From an alpha proteobacterium SCGC AAA288-G21 (GTDB taxonomy: Bacteria; Pseudomonadota; Alphaproteobacteria; Pelagibacterales; Pelagibacteraceae): a DNA stretch of 42,569 nt. Of this stretch, positions 7,563 to 41,445 are shown piece after piece. The stretch is from the NCBI GenBank assembly GCA_000513075.1, contig AZYC01000004.1:1-42569 (forward strand). Reading direction: 5' to 3'. The notes under the pieces were generated by a model. The model was not told where the DNA came from. It worked only from the letters and a program-made list of their open reading frames with translations, and searched no databases. Position numbers and translations under genes: made by a program. How positions within the stretch are numbered: position 1 is the first letter of the stretch; every line of letters starts with the position of its first letter.

Positions 7563-8696
7563 TTACATAGCACACATATTTTTGTCACATTTATTATTTG
7601 TTATTTTCCAACATCTTGGACATTTTTTACCTTTTGCTTTTTTAACCAAAACCTTGACTCCTGAAATATTTTCAATCTGGAATAAATTTTCTTTTTTATC
7701 ATCGAAAGGTTTTGCTATTGCCCGCGAAGTTATACAATACTCAGATAAATTAATTTCTTTAGCAAGTTTTAGATATTGATCGTCTAAATATATTTCCAGA
7801 TCTGCTTCTAAACTCGATCCTAATTCCTTATTGGATCTCTTTACTTCTATAGCTGAATTACAAACTTGTCTTACATAATTTAATTTACTCCATTTTTTAA
7901 ACAAGTGATCATTTTTCCATGCTAATGGTATATCTGGAAAATTTTTTAGATGAATACTGTCATTTTCATTTTTATTAACTATTTTATAAATTTCTTCTGT
8001 TGTAAATGACAATATGGGAGCAAACCACTTTAATAAAGAATCTAGTAAAATATTTAATAAATTTATACAAGCTTTTCTAGTTTGCGAATCTTTTCCGTCA
8101 CAATACAGCGTATCTTTTCTAATATCAAAATAGAAAGCTGATAGATCTTGAGAACAAAAATTCAGTAGATCTTTATAAAGTTTATGAAAATTGTATTCTC
8201 TAAAATAAAATTTATAATTTTGATCTAGCAGATAAATTTTATGTAGCATATATTTTTCAAGATCAGGCCAATTTAAAACTTTATCCGAATTAAAATTAAT
8301 ATCAGTTTTTTGATCCTGAAGATTGCCCAGTAAAAATCTAAAGGTATTTCTTATTTTTCGATATGACTCAGCATGTTGATCTAATATGGAAAAATCAAGT
8401 CTTAGATCTTCCGCATAATCGGATGCAGCTACCCAAACTCTTAGTATGTCTGCACCATATTTTTTTAATATATCTGCAGGTGAAACTATGTTTCCTGTAG
8501 ATTTTGACATTTTAAACCCTTTTCCATCAACTACAAATCCGTGGGACAATATACTTTCATAAGGGGCCCTACCTCTTGTACCGCATGACTCTAATAATGA
8601 AGAATGAAACCAGCCACGATGTTGGTCAGATCCTTCTAAATACATTGATGCTGGCCATTTCAAATCATCTCTTTTTTCTAAAACAAAGGAGTGTGT
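7563..8696 (-). CDS. ileS: Isoleucyl-tRNA synthetase, C-terminal part (5' end missing)
   Basis: Charges tRNA-Ile. About 378 residues remain: the STHSFVLEKR and YLEGSDQHRGWF segments of the end of the catalytic domain, the KMSKSTGN signature, the anticodon-binding helical domain, and a C-terminal zinc ribbon with CPRC followed by CDKNMC. The N-terminal 500 or so residues including the HIGH motif are not in the window. The reading frame continues into msbA N-terminal sequence at 8697, making an apparent MsbA-IleS fusion that I judge to be a chimeric join. Stop at 7563 is 10 bases before lspA. Confidence 0.9.
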   Translation of the reverse strand, partial: THSFVLEKRDDLKWPASMYLEGSDQHRGWFHSSLLESCGTRGRAPYESILSHGFVVDGKGFKMSKSTGNIVSPADILKKYGADILRVWVAASDYAEDLRLDFSILDQHAESYRKIRNTFRFLLGNLQDQKTDINFNSDKVLNWPDLEKYMLHKIYLLDQNYKFYFREYNFHKLYKDLLNFCSQDLSAFYFDIRKDTLYCDGKDSQTRKACINLLNILLDSLLKWFAPILSFTTEEIYKIVNKNENDSIHLKNFPDIPLAWKNDHLFKKWSKLNYVRQVCNSAIEVKRSNKELGSSLEADLEIYLDDQYLKLAKEINLSEYCITSRAIAKPFDDKKENLFQIENISGVKVLVKKAKGKKCPRCWKITNNKCDKNMCAM

Positions 8697-8791
8697 TGAT
8701 TTTATTATTGCTTCGATCAAATTTTGTTGAACTTCTTTTTCAATTGACGCACCAACTTTTATCATCGTGGTTCTTACAAGATAAAGTGAGA
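8697..8791 (-). repeat. 95-bp inverted repeat copy R1b at the MsbA/IleS join
   Basis: Exact reverse complement of bases 1-95. The join to ileS sequence is at 8696/8697; the shared tca Ser codon there (part of both the MsbA IKS and the expected IleS GSTHS sequence) means the breakpoint can be placed only to within about 3-4 bases. Confidence 0.95.
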
Positions 8792-9014
8792 TTCCTTTAA
8801 TCGTAAAAACCAATATTATTGCGATAGGAATTAGTAACATAAATTCTTTATTTTTTTCCACGAATATTTTTTTAATTGCCGGATCAAGCAACCAAGCTAC
8901 AGCAGCAGTACTTCCAGCAATTATTATTGAAAAAAATAATGCTAAAAAAAATTTTTTAAGATACCTGCTAACATATTCTTTATACAATCTTTTTATAATT
9001 TCTTTGTCAGTCAT
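8697..9014 (-). CDS. msbA: Lipid A export ABC transporter MsbA, N-terminal part
   Basis: Encodes the first 106 or so residues of MsbA: a basic cytoplasmic start, transmembrane helix 1 (about 22-42) and helix 2 (about 57-80). The protein then changes abruptly to IleS sequence. Residues 75-106 are encoded again at bases 3-95, where the rest of MsbA continues normally. It begins 15 bases after ubiA on the same strand, so the likely true operon is ubiA-msbA-waaA-lpxK-lpxL. The MsbA-IleS reading frame of 483 residues should not be annotated as a fusion gene. Confidence 0.88.
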
Positions 9015-14088: not shown

Positions 14089-14343
14089 ATGAGCACTTCG
14101 TATACAATTTTGGCGTCAGTCATTGGTCTTTTAATATTATTTCTATACCTGTCGTGGGTATATGTTTCAGCGAAATATGTATGGATAAAGGACAATGATA
14201 ATTCAGTTTTAAAAAAAAATCCAAAGCGGTGGAAAAACATTGTGGATTCAAAAAATAAAGATCTTGGATGGTTTGATTTGGGAAATCACATAATAATTAT
14301 AGGAGTTGTTTTATTTGCAATATTTATTGTAAAGAATACATAA
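14089..14343 (+). CDS. Small two-helix membrane protein at the head of the cox operon, paralogous to the Rieske N-terminus
   Basis: An 84-residue protein I do not recognise from a named family. It has a membrane helix at about residues 6-28, a basic middle (KKNPKRWKN) and a second helix at about 66-82. Residues 1-29 are 20/29 identical to residues 1-29 of the Rieske protein encoded at 40261-40872, including the shared FLYLSWV core. It lies 4 bases before coxB, so it is expressed with the oxidase and may be a small accessory subunit or a supercomplex tether (inference). An AGGA site precedes the ATG. Confidence 0.75.
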   Translation: MSTSYTILASVIGLLILFLYLSWVYVSAKYVWIKDNDNSVLKKNPKRWKNIVDSKNKDLGWFDLGNHIIIIGVVLFAIFIVKNT

Positions 14344-14347
14344 AAAA

Positions 14348-15196
14348 ATGTTTCCGTTAATAGTTGCGCATATTTTTGTTTTGATCGTTGTGGCTTCAGT
14401 CGCCTTTCATTTTTGGTCTCCTTGGTGGTGGACTCCAGTAGCTTCTAATTGGGGAGGTATGGACGATACAATCCTTCTTACATTTTGGGTAACCGGAGTA
14501 GTGTTTATTGCAGTGTGCTTGTTCATGGCTTATTGCATATGGCGTTATCGTTATCAGAAAGACAGAAAAGCAGAATATAAACCCGAAGATAAAAAATTAG
14601 AATTTCATCTTACTTGGTTAACCACACTAGGCGTGATAGTTATGCTAGCCCCAGGACTTGTGGTTTGGCACAAATATGTAACAGTTCCTGAAGATGCTCT
14701 TAATGTTGAAGTCGTAGCCTACCAATGGGGTTGGAAATATAGATTGCCTGGCGAAGATGATATTTTAGGCAAGACTGAAATAAAATTTATAAATGACGAA
14801 AATCCTTTTGGTTTAAATTTAAAAGACCCAAATGGCAAAGATGATATATTAGTAGATAGTGGTGACCTTCATATACAAATAGATAAACCTGTTAAGTTTC
14901 TACTTCGATCCTTGGATGTTCTTCATAATTTTTATGTTCCCCAGTTTAGAGGAAAGATGGATATGGTTCCAGGTCATATTACCTATTATTGGTTAACTCC
15001 GATAAGAACCGGAGATTTTGAAGTTTTGTGTGCAGAATTTTGTGGGGTTGGACATTATGCAATGAGAGGTCGTGTTTTTGTAGATGATGAAAAAAATTAC
15101 AATCAATGGTTAGCTCAACAAATCACTTTTGAGAAGATGCTAGCTCAAAATAAAATAGATAACAAATCATTGAAACTAGTAAAAAATATAGAATGA
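14348..15196 (+). CDS. coxB: Cytochrome c oxidase subunit II
   Basis: Carries the CuA centre that accepts electrons from cytochrome c. The 282-residue protein has three N-terminal hydrophobic segments (about 1-22, 41-64, 87-107), the first of which may be a signal or an extra helix, then the cupredoxin domain. The VAYQWGWKY aromatic patch, the LDVLHNFYVPQF His region and the CAEFCGVGH CuA loop with later Met are all present. There is no fused cytochrome c domain. The WSPWWWTPVASNWGG stretch between helices one and two is unusual to my eye. Confidence 0.92.
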   Translation: MFPLIVAHIFVLIVVASVAFHFWSPWWWTPVASNWGGMDDTILLTFWVTGVVFIAVCLFMAYCIWRYRYQKDRKAEYKPEDKKLEFHLTWLTTLGVIVMLAPGLVVWHKYVTVPEDALNVEVVAYQWGWKYRLPGEDDILGKTEIKFINDENPFGLNLKDPNGKDDILVDSGDLHIQIDKPVKFLLRSLDVLHNFYVPQFRGKMDMVPGHITYYWLTPIRTGDFEVLCAEFCGVGHYAMRGRVFVDDEKNYNQWLAQQITFEKMLAQNKIDNKSLKLVKNIE

Positions 15197-15235: not shown

Positions 15236-17074
15236 ATGTCAGACGAATTTGATAAAAAAATAGAAGCTAAAGCTGATACCATAGTTGATGCAGGATCGGT
15301 ACCTTCCGGTTCAGTTCCAGGTATTGATTATGTTCCGGCACATGAAAGACCAGATCAAGAACTTTATCATTCACATAGTTGGTGGACAACATATGTGTTT
15401 TCTCAAGATGCAAAATATATAGGAATTCAATATGCCATTACCGCAATAGGTACAGGATTAATAGGATTAGTGCTTTCATGGATGATGAGATTACAGCTTG
15501 CTTTTCCTGGTCTGGGTATTCTTGAACCTTCGGCATATTATCAGTTCATTACCATGCACGGAATGATTATGGTAATTTATTTGCTTACAGCATTATTTTT
15601 AGGTGGATTTGGAAACCTTCTTATTCCACTCATGTGTGGAGCTCGGGATATGGCTTTCCCCTATTTGAATATGGTTAGTTATTGGGAATTCCTATTAGCG
15701 GTGTTGATTCTACTTTCAAGCTTTTTTGTTCCTGGTGGACCAACGGGAGCCGGTTGGACTTTATATCCACCTCAAGCAATAACGTCAGGGACTCCGGGAA
15801 GTTCAGCGGGCATTGTATTGATGTTGATATCTCTTTGCGTTTTTGTGGCAGGTTTTACGATGGGCGGTCTAAATTATATTATTACTATGTTACAGTCTCG
15901 TGCTCGTGGAATGACTTTAATGAGATTGCCTCTTACTTGCTGGGGTATTTTTACGGCAACGGTACTTGCTTTATTAGCTTTCCCAGCACTCTTGGTTGGT
16001 TGCATAATGATGACGCTTGATAGTTTATTGGGTACAAGTTTTTTTATGCCTGCAATGATTTCAATGGGAGAAAAACTCTCATATGATGGTGGCAGTCCAT
16101 TATTATTTCAGCATCTTTTTTGGTTCTTTGGTCATCCCGAAGTTTATATTATAGCATTACCAGCTTTTGGTATTATTTCAGATCTTATATCGGTTCATGC
16201 TAGAAAAAATATTTTTGGTTATAGAATGATGGTTTGGGCAATCGTAGGCATCGGTGCTTTAAGCTTCTTTGTCTGGGCTCACCATATGTATGTTAGTGGA
16301 ATGACTCCTTGGTTTGGTTACTTTTTTGCAACCACAACTTTGATTATTGCTGTTCCAACAGCTATCAAAGTTTACAACTGGGTTTTAACTCTTTGGAGAG
16401 GAAATATTCAATTAACTTTACCGATGCTATTTGCTTTAGCCTTTATCGTTACATTTGTTAACGGAGGATTAACAGGAATATTTTTAGGTAATGTTACAGT
16501 GGATGTACCTCTGTCCGACACTTATTTTGTAGTTGCTCATTTCCATATGGTGATGGGTATAGCACCTATTCTAGTCGTATTCGGCGCTATTTATCATTGG
16601 TTTCCTTTGATTACTGGAAGAATGTTGCATGAAGGAATAGGCAGAATCCACTTTTGGGTAACTTTTTTAGGTTCTTATGCAATTTATTTTCCGATGCACT
16701 ATCAAGGATTTGTGGGAGTACCGAGAAGATATTTTGAAATCTATGACAGTCCATACATTACCACGTCAACACTACATCTAAATGTATTTATTACCATAGC
16801 TGCCCTGATTGTTGGTGCAGCTCAACTGTTATTTTTATTTAACTTGATATATAGCGCTCGAGCAGGAAAAAAAGCTGAAAAAAATCCTTGGAAAGCAAAC
16901 TCTTTAGAGTGGTTAACTCCTGAAATGCCTCCTGGGCATGGAAATTTTGGAAAAGAATTACCAGTGGTTTACCGTTGGGCTTACGATTTTAATGTTCCTG
17001 GAGCGGATAAAGATTATATTCCGCAAACTGTTCCTCCAAGCGAAGTAAGATCAGCCAAGGTTGAGAAAACATGA
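15236..17074 (+). CDS. coxA: Cytochrome c oxidase subunit I
   Basis: Catalytic heme-copper subunit that reduces oxygen and pumps protons. The 612-residue protein has a polar N-terminal extension of about 60 residues before 12 membrane helices. Visible ligands are the heme His in FITMHGMIMV, the CuB His and cross-linked Tyr in FFGHPEVYI, the HH pair in WAHHMYVSG and the heme a/a3 His pair in VAHFHMVMG. The Glu of GHPEVY and the Asp of GARDMAFP (D-channel entrance) mark it as an A1-type oxidase. An AGGA site precedes the ATG; its stop overlaps the next start. Confidence 0.96.
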   Translation: MSDEFDKKIEAKADTIVDAGSVPSGSVPGIDYVPAHERPDQELYHSHSWWTTYVFSQDAKYIGIQYAITAIGTGLIGLVLSWMMRLQLAFPGLGILEPSAYYQFITMHGMIMVIYLLTALFLGGFGNLLIPLMCGARDMAFPYLNMVSYWEFLLAVLILLSSFFVPGGPTGAGWTLYPPQAITSGTPGSSAGIVLMLISLCVFVAGFTMGGLNYIITMLQSRARGMTLMRLPLTCWGIFTATVLALLAFPALLVGCIMMTLDSLLGTSFFMPAMISMGEKLSYDGGSPLLFQHLFWFFGHPEVYIIALPAFGIISDLISVHARKNIFGYRMMVWAIVGIGALSFFVWAHHMYVSGMTPWFGYFFATTTLIIAVPTAIKVYNWVLTLWRGNIQLTLPMLFALAFIVTFVNGGLTGIFLGNVTVDVPLSDTYFVVAHFHMVMGIAPILVVFGAIYHWFPLITGRMLHEGIGRIHFWVTFLGSYAIYFPMHYQGFVGVPRRYFEIYDSPYITTSTLHLNVFITIAALIVGAAQLLFLFNLIYSARAGKKAEKNPWKANSLEWLTPEMPPGHGNFGKELPVVYRWAYDFNVPGADKDYIPQTVPPSEVRSAKVEKT

Positions 17075-17703
17075 AAAAAGAAGAAGGCATTTTTAAAATA
17101 CTTTCGCAAAAACCTTGGGAAGCATCCCAGGCAGTGATCGACAATAATCATGATGGCAAAACTTTTGGAATAAGCAAAGCAAAACTTGGAGTTAGAACTA
17201 TAATGACTGTTAGTACAGTTATCTTCTCTTTATTTATTGTTGCTTACGCAGATAGAATGTTAATTCATGACTGGAGAAGCATGCCAGAACCTTGGTTACT
17301 TTGGGTGAATACGGCTGTTCTAATAATGAATAGCTATTTCTTTCACAAAGTTAAAGTTTCCGCAGACCAAAATAATAATAAAGAAATTAGAATAGGACTC
17401 TATACTGTTGGCTTTTTAGCTTACACATTTCTTATTGGTCAACTAATAGTTTGGTATCAACTCATGAGTCTTGATTATTTTGCAACATCAAATATTGCAA
17501 ATGCTTTTTTCTATCTTTTTACGACATTACATGGCTTACATTTATTAGGTGGTTTATATTTTTGGGGAAAAGTTACTTCAAAGTTTTTAAAAGGAGATTA
17601 TAAATTATCAAGTGTACAACATGCGATTGAACTTTGTGCAATTTACTGGCATTTTTTACTATTTGTTTGGCTGGTATTGTTTGGCTTAATGTTATTCACT
17701 TAA
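17071..17703 (+). CDS. Cytochrome c oxidase subunit III family protein, first copy
   Basis: A 210-residue protein with about five membrane helices (near 42-60, 76-92, 108-131, 139-163, 185-208). The TTLHGLHLLGG motif and the C-terminal ELCAIYWHFLLFVWLVLF match the subunit III superfamily (CoxC/CyoC/NorE). It lacks the first two helices of the seven-helix mitochondrial form. It overlaps the coxA stop (ATGA) and is followed 9 bases later by a second, distinct member of the same family, so the oxidase may carry two different subunit III-like proteins, or one may act in assembly. Confidence 0.85.
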   Translation: MKKEEGIFKILSQKPWEASQAVIDNNHDGKTFGISKAKLGVRTIMTVSTVIFSLFIVAYADRMLIHDWRSMPEPWLLWVNTAVLIMNSYFFHKVKVSADQNNNKEIRIGLYTVGFLAYTFLIGQLIVWYQLMSLDYFATSNIANAFFYLFTTLHGLHLLGGLYFWGKVTSKFLKGDYKLSSVQHAIELCAIYWHFLLFVWLVLFGLMLFT

Positions 17704-17712
17704 AGGAAAAAA

Positions 17713-18420
17713 ATGGATCAAGCTGCTTTAAAAAAACTTCCAAGAGGATGGAAAAGTATACCGAGTGATTTAAATTCAGATCAAACTGCGTTCAAAGGAG
17801 TTAATTGGGGCAAAGCGATGATGTGGATTTTCTTGTTAAGTGATACATTTATTTTTAGTTGTTTCTTACTTTCTTACATGACGGGTCGTGGATCAACAGT
17901 CTTACCTTGGCCAAATCCAAGCAAAGTTTTTGCATTAGATTTTATGGGTGTACCTGTTCCTTTATTATTGATTGCAATTATGACTTTTGTTTTAATTACA
18001 AGCAGTGGAACCATGGCTATGGCTGTTAAATATGGCTATGAAAAAAATCGCAAATTATGTGGGACATTTTTATTATTAACAGCAATTGGTGGACTCACCT
18101 TTGTTGGTATGCAGGCGTTTGAGTGGTCCAAATTAATTTTTCATGAAGGAGTTCGTCCTTGGAGTAATCCTTATGGGGCCCCTCAATTTGGTTCCTTCTT
18201 TTTTATGATTACAGGTTTTCATGGGACACATGTATCCATTGGAGTAATTTTTCTTTTTATTTTTTCAAGAAAAGTTTTCAAGGGCGATTTTGATAGTGGA
18301 AGAAAAGGTTATTTTACTTCTATGAAATCTGATTATGTGGCAATAGAAATCTTAGGACTTTATTGGCACTTTGTTGATTTAGTTTGGGTATTTATTTTTG
18401 CATTCTTTTATTTGTGGTAG
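17713..18420 (+). CDS. coxC: Cytochrome c oxidase subunit III, second copy
   Basis: A 235-residue protein with about five membrane helices. The core reads GKAMMWIFLLSDTFIFS, then GFHGTHVSIGV near residue 170 and ILGLYWHFVDLVWVFIF at the C-terminus, the standard subunit III signatures. It is closer to canonical CoxC than the 210-residue paralogue before it because it keeps the full WHFVDLVW ending. An AAAGGA site precedes the ATG. Neighbouring subunit IV follows 8 bases after the stop. Confidence 0.88.
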   Translation: MDQAALKKLPRGWKSIPSDLNSDQTAFKGVNWGKAMMWIFLLSDTFIFSCFLLSYMTGRGSTVLPWPNPSKVFALDFMGVPVPLLLIAIMTFVLITSSGTMAMAVKYGYEKNRKLCGTFLLLTAIGGLTFVGMQAFEWSKLIFHEGVRPWSNPYGAPQFGSFFFMITGFHGTHVSIGVIFLFIFSRKVFKGDFDSGRKGYFTSMKSDYVAIEILGLYWHFVDLVWVFIFAFFYLW

Positions 18421-18428
18421 GATTGAAA

Positions 18429-18764
18429 ATGGTAGAAAATATTAAAAAGGAACAAGCAACAACACATAAACTAGGCATTTACCTTTGGATTTGGGGTCTA
18501 TTATTTGTTCTTAGTTTCTTTTCATACATGGTTGACTGGTTACAATTTCAAGGCTTATTGAGATGGACCTTAATTTTAACATTCATGTTTTTAAAAGCTG
18601 GTTTAATTATGGCATTCTTTATGCATTTATTTTGGGAACGCTATACACTTGTAAATGTTCTGCTTTGGCCAATGACAGCAATAGCAACCTTTGTTGGACT
18701 AATGGTTGCAGAATCAAAATATACTGTTTTCACACGATTTTTTTATTTCGTTTTAGGAAGTTAA
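18429..18764 (+). CDS. Cytochrome c oxidase subunit IV family protein
   Basis: A 111-residue protein with three membrane helices (about 14-34, 45-65, 73-95) of the prokaryotic CyoD/COX4 type; the FLKAGLIMAFFMHLFWE motif is characteristic. I start it at the ATG at 18429, which has an AGGA site 6 bases upstream, and not at the upstream ATG at 18384 inside coxC. It probably stabilises the oxidase. Confidence 0.8.
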   Translation: MVENIKKEQATTHKLGIYLWIWGLLFVLSFFSYMVDWLQFQGLLRWTLILTFMFLKAGLIMAFFMHLFWERYTLVNVLLWPMTAIATFVGLMVAESKYTVFTRFFYFVLGS

Positions 18765-18783: not shown

Positions 18784-19695
18784 TTGCTTAATACTAGTGC
18801 TAAATCAGAAACGCTGAAGTTAAATTTTTTTAGTTATCTAAAGGCTTTGTTTAATCTTATGAAGCCTCGAGTAATGTCATTAGTGATTTTTACTTGTGTA
18901 GTAGGTCTATTAATTGCACCCACAAAAGTAAATTTTTTGAATGCAATCTTTTCTATCCTTGCAGTAGCTTTGGGTTCTGGCGCTGCTGGTGCATTAAATA
19001 TGTGGTATGAAGCAGATTTGGATTCAATAATGAGCAGGACATGTCTTAGACCAATTCCGACAGGAAAAGTTACTAAAAATCAGGCTTTGATTTTCGGAAT
19101 TTTAGCTTCACTAATTTCGGTAGTGGCTTTATATTTTTTTTCAAATTTAGTTGCTTCATTTATATTAGCAACTACAATTTTATTTTATGTTTTTATTTAC
19201 ACAATTTGGCTTAAACAAAAGACTCCTCAAAACATTGTTATTGGTGGGGCAGCTGGAGCCTTACCACCTGTAATAGGCTGGGCTATTGCAACAGGAGATA
19301 TAGCGCTTCAGCCTGTTATATTATTTTTAATTATTTTTATTTGGACACCCTCTCATTTTTGGGCACTCAGCTTATATAAGACAGAAGATTATAGAAAAGC
19401 TAATATTCCAATGCTACCAGTTACATCTGGAGTAAAAACAACCAAACTAAATATCTTTGTTTACGCTTTACTCCTGTTTGTAATTGTTTTAGCTCCATTC
19501 TTTCTTGAATATTTTGGTTTAATTTATTTGGTATTTTCAGGAATACTGGGTTTTTATTATGTATTTATCTGTTACAGATTATTGAGAGCAAATGAAACTA
19601 GATTAGAAAAGAAAATTGCTAAACAAATATTTGGTTTTTCGATTTTTTATCTTTTTATGATTTTTGCCTCCATCTTAGTAGATAGAATAATATAA
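18784..19695 (+). CDS. ctaB: Protoheme IX farnesyltransferase (heme O synthase)
   Basis: Adds a farnesyl group to heme b to make heme O, precursor of heme a for the oxidase. The 303-residue UbiA-superfamily membrane protein has MKPRVMSLVIFT in helix one, the Asp-rich NMWYEADLDSIMSRT near residues 72-86 with RPIPTG after it, and the second acidic region KTEDYRKA near 198. The start is TTG at 18784 with an AGGA site upstream; the next in-frame ATG (in LMKPRV) is too far inside the conserved helix. It sits in the cox operon, as usual. No heme A synthase (ctaA) is in the window. Confidence 0.92.
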   Translation: MLNTSAKSETLKLNFFSYLKALFNLMKPRVMSLVIFTCVVGLLIAPTKVNFLNAIFSILAVALGSGAAGALNMWYEADLDSIMSRTCLRPIPTGKVTKNQALIFGILASLISVVALYFFSNLVASFILATTILFYVFIYTIWLKQKTPQNIVIGGAAGALPPVIGWAIATGDIALQPVILFLIIFIWTPSHFWALSLYKTEDYRKANIPMLPVTSGVKTTKLNIFVYALLLFVIVLAPFFLEYFGLIYLVFSGILGFYYVFICYRLLRANETRLEKKIAKQIFGFSIFYLFMIFASILVDRII

Positions 19696-38343: not shown

Positions 38344-38648
38344 CTAGATATATTTTACATCTTTGATTTTAAATGTCTTTTCTCCAGCAGGAGAAACGAA
38401 TTTAGCTATGTCGTTTTTATTTTTTCCAATTAATCCTTTTCCAATAGGTGCCCTAAAATAGACTAGGTTCTTTTTAATATTTGCTTCGTCTTTACCCACT
38501 ATCTTGAAAATTTTTTTTTCATTTGTTTTAGTATTAATTAATTCGACAGTAGACCCAAATATTACTTTTCCATTATTTTCGATTTTAGTTACATCAATAA
38601 CATTTGCTCTTGCGATAATATCGCCAATTTCTACTATTCTACCTTCCA
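38344..38648 (-). CDS. greA: Transcription elongation factor GreA, C-terminal part
   Basis: Encodes about the last 101 residues of GreA: the end of the coiled coil ([15 protein letters not shown]) and the FKBP-like domain with GKGLIGKNKNDIAKFVSPAG. The N-terminal part is at 42303-42569; combining the two through the shared 95 bases gives a 158-residue protein, the normal GreA size. The reading frame upstream of 38648 is out-of-frame petC sequence, so no real start exists here. Confidence 0.93.
38554..38648 (-). repeat. 95-bp inverted repeat copy R2a at the GreA/cytochrome c1 join
   Basis: Exact reverse complement of 42475-42569. The identity ends at 38649 (g faces t). The next bases belong to petC; both petC and greA share tggaagg at the breakpoint, so there is at least 7 bases of microhomology. 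Confidence 0.95.
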
Positions 38649-39004
38649 GGGCGACTAAACATCTCTCCCTCGCTATTCGGTCCATCCATAACTTCAAAGC
38701 TTGCGGCAATCTTCTTCGCTTGTTCTTTCGAAAACTCAGGTCCCCCTTTTTCTGTTAAGTTTCTATAACTTAAATATTGAACTGAGTGACAACTAGCACA
38801 CACTTCATTATATACTTGATAACCTCTTTGCAAAGCTGCCCTGTCAAACTTGCCGAATATTCCTTCAAAACTCCAATTTGTCTTAATTAAATCTATTCTG
38901 GATACCTCTGCTGTCACACTAAGATTAATGAAAATTATCAATAAAGGAGAAATACACAAAACCTTGAATATTTTTTTAAATTTTTTTTGCATGATATTTT
39001 TCAC
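38649..39004 (-). CDS. petC: Cytochrome c1 of the bc1 complex, N-terminal part (3' end missing)
   Basis: Membrane-anchored c-type cytochrome that passes electrons from the Rieske protein to cytochrome c. About 119 residues remain: a signal peptide (about 10-32), then the heme-binding CASCH motif near residue 69 followed by SVQYLSYRNL, and the GPNSEGEMFS segment. The family continues as RPGR, which is also what the chimeric frame reads before a stop at 38639, so true petC sequence extends a few bases into the microhomology. The Met ligand and C-terminal anchor are not in the window. It follows petB after 7 bases. Confidence 0.9.
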
Positions 39005-39011
39005 CTATTGC

Positions 39012-40259
39012 TCATTGTTTTTCTGAAGATAATTTACTCTCATCACCCAATACTGGATCGGAAATACTTAGCGGAAGTGGGATGGTTTTTTCCTTAAAAC
39101 CTAATAACGGCATTATCACAATAAAATGAACAAAATAATAAATTGTAGAAATTCTACCTATTATTAAATACATTCCCTCGGGTGGTTTGGCGCCAATATA
39201 TCCAAGTACAATAACATCAATAACTAATATCCAGAAAAACACTTTGTATAATGGTCTAAAAACAGCCGATCTAACTTTAGAAGTATCAAGCCAAGGTAAA
39301 AACATTAGAATAAAAACGGCAGCAAACATTACAACAACTCCTCCTAGTTTGTCGGGGACAGATCTTAGAATTGCATAAAAAGGAAGCAAATACCATTCGG
39401 GTACTATATGTGAAGGTGTAACCATTGGATTCGCTTCAATATAATTATCCGGGTGACCTAGTACATTTGGAACAAAAAATACAAATCCCAAAAAAATAAT
39501 TAAAAATATTAGCAAAGCATAGAAATCTTTAATTATAATGTAAGGATGAAAAGGAACTGTTTCTTTTGAAGGTTTCTTAATATCTATACCAACAGGATTG
39601 TTATTACCTGGAATATGCAGTGCCCATATATGTAAAATTACTAGTCCAAAAATCAAAAAAGGAAACAAATAATGCAAGCTAAAAAATCTCGTTAAAGTTG
39701 GGCTGCCTACTGCATATCCTCCCCAAAGCCATGAAGTAATACTATCTCCAACTAAAGGTATAGCGCTAAATAAATTTGTTATAACTGTAGCCGCCCAAAA
39801 ACTCATTTGTCCCCAAGGTAAAACATAACCCATAAATGCTGTTGCCATCATCAACAAATAAATAAGCATTCCTATAATCCAAATTATTTCTCTAGGTGCT
39901 TTATAAGATCCATAAAACAACGCCCTAAAAATGTGTATGTAAACCGCCAAGAAAAACATTGAGGAACCGTTTGCATGAAGGTATCTAATTAGCCAACCAT
40001 AATTTACATCTCTCATGATATGCTCAACACTCCCGAAAGCTAGGTCCGCATGAGCTACATAATGCATTGCTAAAACTAAACCTGTGATTATCTGAATAAT
40101 TAAAAAAAAAGTAAGAATTCCTCCAAAGGTCCACCAATAATTTAAATTTTTGGGGGTTGGATAATCATTTATATGATGCGCTAAAGTTAATAATGGTAAT
40201 CTGCTATCAAACCATTGTCCAAGTTTAGATTTAGGTACATACTTTTCTTCACTCATCAA
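39012..40259 (-). CDS. petB: Cytochrome b of the bc1 complex
   Basis: Quinol-oxidising core subunit. The 415-residue protein has eight expected helices, the two heme-ligand His pairs ([18 protein letters not shown] and [20 protein letters not shown]) and the Qo-site motif [14 protein letters not shown] (near 287). Length matches proteobacterial fused cytochrome b rather than split b6. The start is 1 base after the petA stop. Confidence 0.96.
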
Positions 40260-40260
40260 C

Positions 40261-40872
40261 TTAACCTATTTTGATTGTATTGTTGTCTACAAATTCATAT
40301 TTGGGTATTTCAAGGTTTGTAGGAGCCGGACCTTTTCTTATTCTGCCCGAAGTATCGTAATGAGATCCATGACATGGGCAAAACCAACCGCCAAAATCTC
40401 CTTTTTCTCCTAAAGGTACACATCCAAGATGTGTACAAACTCCTGTCATTATAAGCCACTCTGATTTCTTCACTCTATCTTCATCTTTTTGAGGATCTAT
40501 TAATTCACTTAAATTTACATTTTGAGCTTTACTTATTTCTTCCTGAGTCCTTCTTCTTATAAAAACTGGTTTACCCCTCCAAAGCACTGTAATTGTTTTA
40601 CCTAGTCCAACTGTGCTTATATCTACCTCAGTCGTAGCCAAAGCCTTAACGGATGCATCAGGATTCATTTGATCAATTAATGGCCACACAGCTGCTCCAA
40701 CACCAACTGCTCCTAAAGCATAAGAAGCGGTAAATAAAAAATCTCTTCTTTCGCTAGTTTCTTTCTTTTGTTCTTTATCTACAACTTTAATAGAAACAAA
40801 TACCCACGAAAGATATAAAAATATAATTAAAAGGACAATAACTGTTGTCAAAAATGCATATGATGAACTCAT
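40261..40872 (-). CDS. petA: Rieske iron-sulfur protein with an extra N-terminal membrane helix
   Basis: Carries the [2Fe-2S] cluster of the bc1 complex. The 203-residue protein has cluster ligands in CTHLGC (146-151) and CPCHGSHYD (165-173). The twin-Arg/membrane segment [24 protein letters not shown] starts at 41, not near residue 10 as usual, because a separate hydrophobic helix (about 6-28) precedes it. That helix is 20/29 identical in sequence to the small cox-operon protein at 14089. No Met lies between residues 2 and 68, so the long N-terminus cannot be explained by a wrong start. First gene of petA-petB-petC. Confidence 0.94.
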
Positions 40873-40965: not shown

Positions 40966-41445
40966 ATGACACAGTCAAACTTCAAAAGTTCTACTCTAAT
41001 TAAAGTTGCACTTTATGAACCAGATATACCTCAAAATACTGCCGCAATAGTACGGCTGTGCGCATGTTTTGGAGTTAGATTAGATATTATTGAACCTTGT
41101 GGATTTTTTTTAAGTGACAAAAGATTTAAAAGGGTAGCGATGGATTATATAAATATATGCAAAGTAAAATCATTCAAAGATTTTACCGAGTTTAAAAAGG
41201 ACAAAAAAAATGAAAGAATAATCTTAATGACCACAAAGGCAAAAAGGAAATATTTCGACTTTAAATTTAATCAGAATGATACGTTATTATTTGGCCGTGA
41301 AAGTGCTGGTGTTTCCCAGTTAGTACATAAAAGTGTAGATTATAAGTTGACTATTCCAATACAAAAAGAAGCTAGATCTCTTAATATAGTTTCAAGTGTA
41401 GCAATCACTTTGACTGAGGCTCTAAAACAAAATCATTATTTATAA
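40966..41445 (+). CDS. trmL: tRNA (cytidine(34)-2'-O)-methyltransferase
   Basis: SPOUT-class methylase acting on the wobble base of tRNA-Leu. The 159-residue single-domain protein has the VALYEPDIPQNTAAIVRLCACFG start, the LLFGRESAGVSQ knot motif and TIPIQKEARSLNIVSSVAI near the C-terminus, all TrmL signatures. It is followed 2 bases later by hemF. Confidence 0.92.
   Translation: MTQSNFKSSTLIKVALYEPDIPQNTAAIVRLCACFGVRLDIIEPCGFFLSDKRFKRVAMDYINICKVKSFKDFTEFKKDKKNERIILMTTKAKRKYFDFKFNQNDTLLFGRESAGVSQLVHKSVDYKLTIPIQKEARSLNIVSSVAITLTEALKQNHYL

Follow-up and report, generated by a model that had tools for sequence, protein, structure and literature searches.

An additional N-terminal helix in a SAR11 Rieske protein and its homologue in a small protein from an alternative oxidase gene cluster

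Supercomplexes of the bc1 complex and a terminal oxidase are much less known from Gram-negative bacteria than from mitochondria (PMC8361435), and the parts joining the two enzymes are mostly open. According to the passages cited, oxidase subunit III is the main contact in the supercomplexes of M. smegmatis and F. johnsoniae (PMC8361435), and in an engineered bc1-cbb3 supercomplex the helices of CcoH and cytochrome cy were tentatively placed at the interface (PMC7876108). The Rieske proteins of proteobacterial bc1 complexes normally have a single helix with the twin arginine (RR) near the N-terminus. The actinobacterial Rieske protein QcrA is described with three helices, dual Sec/Tat handling and as a part of a bcc-aa3 supercomplex. 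On the oxidase side, a COX3 doublet is given as the mark of COX operon type a-III (PMC4013037), and Pelagibacterales close to or inside oxygen-minimum zones were reported to have this type (PMC8879329). Among the titles and beginnings of abstracts considered, none describes a counterpart of the SAR11 Rieske extension or of the small oxidase-linked protein which are the subject of this paper.

The DNA analysed here, in the following the window, is a contig of 42,569 nucleotides. It belongs to G000, a 66% complete genome of SAR11 (Pelagibacterales). The features discussed are listed in Table 1. Residues 41-203 of PetA form an ordinary member of the single-helix Rieske proteins of the proteobacteria: this part scores 228 bits with TIGR01416 (cut-off 97.4), PF10399 (8.8e-20) and PF00355 (1.3e-9) match, both cluster-binding boxes (CTHLGC and CPCHGS) are present, petB adjoins petA, and the gene divergent from petA is shared as well. 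Unlike these proteins, PetA carries in front an extension of residues 1-41 with a helix. Residues 1-31 are encoded at 40780-40872, the Tat module of Pfam starts with residue 35 and the RR lies at residues 42-43; the highest 19-residue hydropathy ahead of the RR is 2.7. The additional helix before a late RR, which the original prediction had claimed, is therefore present, and by this helix PetA is a variant and not a typical member of the proteobacterial bc1 Rieske proteins. With QcrA it shares an extra membrane segment ahead of the RR. However, PetA has one extra helix instead of two, hence its N-terminus would be outside (N-out) and not inside, and the QcrA model NF050121 covers only residues 128-183 with 25.2 bits against a cut-off of 275. 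An AF2 model places the two helices of PetA at residues 3-34 and 40-69 with a mean pLDDT of only 60.6; neither this model nor that of the small protein (pLDDT 70.2) was used for contacts in view of their low confidence.

Table 1. Positions of the features discussed in the text, given as coordinates of the window.
Feature	Position	Strand	Basis or remark
petA	40261-40872	(-)	203 aa
PetA residues 1-29, grafted N-terminal transmembrane helix with FLYLSWV core	40786..40872	(-)	identity with small cox protein; hhalign; AF2
PetA residues 30-41, short charged linker preceding the twin arginine	40750..40785	(-)	alignment of 7 Rieske proteins
PetA residues 42-203 and stop: RR, Tat signal-anchor helix, Rieske [2Fe-2S] domain	40261..40749	(-)	Pfam, TIGR01416
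petB, cytochrome b	39012..40259	(-)	ORF, named by eye; petB after petA in relatives
Divergent neighbour of petA, presumably TrmL-like tRNA methyltransferase	40966..41445	(+)	ruler for in-place insertion
Small membrane protein of 84 aa with two predicted helices; opens the alternative cox operon; presumed donor family of the helix	14089..14343	(+)	alignments, gene context
Small protein residues 1-29, common helix	14089..14175	(+)	
Small protein residues 64-83, second helix, overlaps conserved DLGNH; not in PetA	14278..14337	(+)	alignment, model
Cox subunit II, complete presumed CuA motif CAEFCGVGHYAM	14348..15196	(+)	PF00116, 49.6 bits over 22
Cox subunit I, alternative oxidase	15236..17074	(+)	PF00115, 1.7e-136
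First COX3-like subunit	17071..17703	(+)	PF00510, 8.8e-6, 26.2 bits over 23.8
Second COX3 subunit	17713..18420	(+)	PF00510, 1.4e-18
COX4_pro subunit	18429..18764	(+)	start codon by eye; PF03626, 5.5e-9 on longer frame from 18384
ctaB, haem O synthase	18784..19695	(+)	TIGR01473, 313.7 bits over 210.3

The first 29 residues of PetA and of the small protein in front of the cox genes are identical at 20 positions, in register from the start codon. The paralogy of these segments, as originally predicted, was borne out by several comparisons. BLASTP aligned the two proteins with 21 identities in 31 positions (E=1e-10). When the small protein was shuffled 200,000 times with its composition and M1 kept, 20 identities were never reached (maximum 13). 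In hhalign, columns 1-36 of the profiles of the small family and the Rieske extension match with E=1.3e-11. When G000 was searched in six frames with the small protein, PetA is the sole strong match besides the protein itself (6.6e-7, the next one 0.02). When 385 genomes of the class were searched with the profile of the small family, matches of E<=0.001 were restricted to the window's own genome, where PetA is found with E=4.3e-10; the other 384 genomes without a match serve as an empirical null. Only the small family and the Rieske extension were found in this way. The helix at the 5' end of petA and the small protein's first helix are homologous, and the common part is limited to this helix, which is shorter than the whole extension; the conserved DLGNH half of the small protein has no counterpart in PetA. 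A third carrier of the helix did not stand out in the sequence and profile searches. An anchored cytochrome c was considered as such and rejected, as the N-termini of the cytochromes c that were read differ from the helix.

In the small protein two predicted helices flank a charged loop. The best Pfam match (0.039) is under the cut-off, NCBIfam gives none at 0.01, the best PDB sequence profile (0.0053) is a transporter-like protein and no usable relative, and Foldseek finds nothing at E<=10 with a query model of pLDDT 70. The family is without a model in the libraries searched and, among the genomes used here, confined to SAR11. It is present in 72 of 397 SAR11 genomes, 70 of them with E<=2.1e-26, while the divergent members of G179 and G030 are found by a profile that includes the sequence of G030 itself; ten weaker matches (E 8e-4 to 0.01) were counted as chance. 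The gene is located directly upstream of coxII in the genera g1, g2, g10, g13 and g14, between cox4 and ctaB in all 21 g4/g5 loci read (one locus ends before ctaB), and convergent beyond cox4 in G030 and G179. Through all three arrangements the oxidase gene cluster is its home in every context read, as expected for the cox-linked protein that had been proposed. A second site of the family in G001 (contig C15), beside a g4-like operon, was not counted as a paralogue, because the bin is given as 4% contaminated and the site is probably a contaminant.

The small gene of the window is followed by an operon of the order coxII-coxI-COX3-COX3-COX4-ctaB. Subunit II contains CAEFCGVGHYAM, which we take to be the CuA motif, and reaches 141.7 bits with TIGR02866, just below the cut-off of 147.7; subunit I is likewise just below the cut-off of TIGR02891 (660.3 against 670.75 bits). 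The window's CoxI is 42-46% identical to the usual CoxI of SAR11 (38% in one fragment) and 72-99% identical to other alternative CoxI proteins. The presence of two COX3 genes in one aa3 operon with coxII and coxI is a feature of COX operon type a-III and of its Bradyrhizobium counterpart, presumably coxMNOP, and the operon is assigned to this type by the COX3 doublet and not by phylogenetic placement. In contrast to the five operons of other alphaproteobacteria considered below it carries the small two-helix protein, and is thereby a variant of the type. A 2014 survey gives type b as the sole kind of COX operon in the SAR11 clade (PMC4013037), which is contradicted by the operon of the window.

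Among 61 related genomes the alternative CoxI (72-100% identity) was found in 18 and the usual one in 41; two gave no match, and none shows both. The alternative CoxI is found alone in 15 of the 16 genomes with the small protein, many of the genomes being incomplete. Both oxidases are encoded in G179, a single contig, where the alternative operon lies in inverted orientation alongside the usual coxII-coxI genes (L230, G179:C1:590000-604000); possibly this pair is a snapshot of an oxidase replacement. The gene rsmE precedes the alternative operon in the loci read from g1, g2, g3, g4, g5, g8, g10, g13 and g14, and it precedes the usual oxidase operon in three g5 loci. In G030 the alternative operon does not follow rsmE, and in G179 not directly. 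The alternative oxidase mostly occupies the place of the usual one in the SAR11 lineages. In a draw of the class, CoxI proteins with 72-75% identity were obtained from 20 of 371 other genomes; in five such operons from other alphaproteobacteria the best match to the small protein did not go beyond E=0.29. In L204 (G001:C5:17000-33000) the alternative cox operon is present twice in tandem, and the second one was found without the small gene and the first COX3 gene.

A Rieske match was obtained in 58 of the 61 related genomes. The N-termini were read in 30 of these and in 80 public loci, partly of the same genomes, and the other 28 were judged from the start of the alignment (query residue 15 or later) together with the lack of a Rieske match to the helix; the Rieske protein of G026 is truncated by the contig end. 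The extension is present in seven genomes, G000-G003 (g1), G014 (g11), G016 (g13) and G017 (g14), and all seven Rieske proteins found in these four genera are extended, the fifth g1 genome (G004, 63% complete) giving no Rieske match. Every other SAR11 Rieske protein with an N-terminus read is without it. Outside SAR11, 27 Rieske proteins were examined from the stop codon onward, and in none of them is the RR preceded by a hydrophobic stretch (the highest mean over 19 residues is 1.06); these 27 are among the 29 best-scoring loci of 152 other genomes with a match, the remaining two being one SAR11 locus and one without the motif. In a tree of 106 rows from the PetA core and PetB, made by a quick method without bootstrap and with two rows lacking PetB, the seven extended rows are on one side of one branch with a support of 97, which corresponds to one change. 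The nearest rows belong to g10, g3 and g8, with a support of 83-84 and no star. The extension is a derived trait of one SAR11 clade that was gained once. The original prediction had named relatives without extension and without a small cox-linked protein as evidence against it; such relatives exist with regard to the extension, but the distribution of the small protein given above does not agree.

The divergent neighbour of petA, which we presume to be a TrmL-like tRNA methyltransferase, is present at 104 of 110 petA loci. From its start to the RR codons 191-216 bp are counted in ten extended loci (seven genomes, three of them twice) versus 66-139 bp in 94 plain ones. Since trmL is kept while this distance grows, an in-place insertion of about 120 bp (about 40 codons) at the 5' end of petA is the simplest account. 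From its far wider distribution we infer that the small gene was the donor of the helix. The DNA of the two helix copies differs at 0.52-0.82 of the synonymous and 0.16-0.34 of the non-synonymous sites (six genomes), and the duplication is for that reason old. The diverged DNA and the occurrence of the extension in six other genomes agree with the prediction of an old duplication instead of an assembly copy, and because of this recurrence the extension is not one of the likely chimaeric junctions of the window. The 70 bp upstream of petA and of the small gene are in none of six genomes more alike than shuffles (fractions 0.14-0.90), so that the capture of a leader sequence was rejected. Within the seven Rieske genes the helix has pn values of 0.07-0.29 versus ps values of 0.20-0.86, which indicates purifying selection, weaker than in the rest of PetA, where pn is 0.03-0.13; the helix changes faster.

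Eight invariant residues of the Rieske helix, S4, Y5, L8, I12, L15, L19, S22 and W23, fall into a sector of about 100 degrees on a helical wheel. Three further invariant residues, F18, F25 and S27, are located at the edge of or off this side. Y5, L8, F18 and S27 are invariant or nearly so in both families, and two of these four, F18 and S27, are not on the conserved side. The conservation moment of the Rieske helix at 100 degrees is significant (p=0.0009), and so is the similarity between the Rieske and small families at the same period (p=0.02), whereas no significant periodicity was obtained for plain identity between the families (p=0.11) and for conservation within the small family (p=0.24); these p values are indicative, given that they come from four measures applied to related rows. 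The one-sided conservation suggests a specific packing surface. From the charge distribution and the logic of the Tat pathway, the grafted helix appears to be oriented N-out/C-in with the RR in the cytoplasm. The order helix-RR-helix is present in the PetA sequence, and the first helix would probably be inserted by Sec/YidC before the RR and the second helix are handled by Tat. A genome-wide search for N-out dual-pathway proteins is described as having reported a YkuE-like family (PMC5449189).

The best reading considered is that the grafted helix packs at the alternative oxidase or its small protein and thus ties the bc1 complex to the replacement oxidase, which as judged from sequences is quite possible, if still short of probable. 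The helix would retain the packing side that is used in the small protein, and would bind either the oxidase itself or the small protein by a paralogous pairing of helix with helix, so that the bc1 complex would be tethered to the oxidase that replaced the usual one and the path of cytochrome c would be shorter. Docking is favoured because the conservation of the helix is one-sided and its source lies in the operon of the replacement oxidase. As the packing side is partly common with a protein of the oxidase cluster, the oxidase or the small protein is the likeliest partner, and such a side is more in keeping with a retained contact than with an anchor alone. We regard it as conceivable, and somewhat on the doubtful side, that an a-III-type oxidase with a private two-helix subunit replaced the native one and that one lineage then copied the first helix onto its Rieske protein, by which bc1 could plug in. 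CcoH of the cbb3 oxidase may work alike as a small oxidase-linked helix tentatively located at a bc1-oxidase interface (PMC7876108); in contrast to CcoH, the related helix is here fused to a bc1 subunit.

Several observations weaken the docking. All seven extended genomes have the alternative CoxI, but as the extension was gained once this amounts to one event, and the co-occurrence, which had been suggested as a check, is undecisive and was rejected as a proof. Ten of the 50 genomes with a plain Rieske protein (27 of the 50 judged from alignments only) have the alternative oxidase as well, five of them with the small protein. In G014 (71% complete) the extension is present and the small protein was not found, coxII being 63% identical and coxI a fragment of 74%. 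In g3 and g8 (L201, L202, L212) there are alternative oxidase operons for which neither the small protein, apparently lost or never gained, nor an extension was found; neither therefore seems to be required. The off-side residues F18, F25 and S27, the non-significant periodicities, the faster evolution of the helix and the role of subunit III as the main contact in the cited M. smegmatis and F. johnsoniae supercomplexes (PMC8361435) point in the same direction. A loss of cytochrome c or a c1 with two haems, by which a direct wire would be forced, was considered and is not the case where readable: six of the seven extended genomes retain a cytochrome c that has a hydrophobic stretch at its N-terminus (none was found in G002, 65% complete), and cytochrome c1 has one haem in the two extended genomes read whole. 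This speaks against a strong dependence. Such a cytochrome c would work well in a bc1-oxidase assembly.

Alternatively, the helix may be a captured anchor, a tolerated or slightly useful N-out start helix for the targeting of the Rieske protein which has no contact to the oxidase and is conserved for packing inside bc1. A single helix and not the DLGNH half is common, the grafted helix is less constrained than the Tat helix, two of the positions that both families keep invariant do not lie on the conserved side, and the Sec-then-Tat handling of a helix before the RR is described for the three-helix actinobacterial Rieske protein (PMC5449189). We nevertheless consider this doubtful, since purifying selection and one-sided invariance extend over seven genomes of four genera, the one-sided likeness between the families would be unexpected from packing inside bc1 alone, and the helix came from the gene cluster of the partner enzyme. 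That the helix is a tag for an insertase or assembly protein which handles both oxidase and bc1 and coordinates their biogenesis would agree with the same helix in the same start-codon register in both proteins, and the small single-helix proteins CcoH and CcoS of another oxidase system are described as assembly factors (PMC7876108). No candidate factor was identified, however, and the searches did not bring forward a third protein that carries the helix. We regard a shared assembly factor as unlikely. It is even less likely that the 5' end of the cox gene was captured for its translation start with the helix as a passenger: the common piece does begin at the start codon, but the upstream regions are unlike in six of six genomes, although such divergence could erase the signal, and a passenger would not stay under selection with one-sided conservation. 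A chance or convergent likeness of two short and hydrophobic helices, or a duplicate from the assembly, is refuted by the results of shuffles and of sequence and profile searches, which are far beyond chance, and by the diverged DNA in seven genomes.

If the tether to the oxidase is true, the helix that was moved by gene duplication between the genes of two enzymes would be an evolutionary pointer to their contact in an abundant ocean lineage, and an example of a helix transplanted in nature with a respiratory supercomplex as the outcome. Y5, L8 and W23 are short, mutable targets. Independent of this reading, SAR11 lineages are found with an alternative terminal oxidase at the place of the usual one, and an oxidase-linked SAR11 protein family without a model in the searched libraries can be named.

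Further observations concern the gene neighbourhoods. In L206 (G014:C69) the alternative coxII-coxI genes (63% and 74%) are divergent from an ORF which by eye resembles a small blue-copper protein. In the window petC (38344-39004, minus strand) is cut after about 120 residues and followed by a GreA C-terminal domain in another frame, probably at a chimaeric assembly junction; the near relative G003 (L063) has an uninterrupted petC. One frame at 7563-9014 (minus strand) begins as an ABC transporter and ends as the C-terminal portion of a class I tRNA synthetase, by eye IleS-like, and is likely another chimaera.
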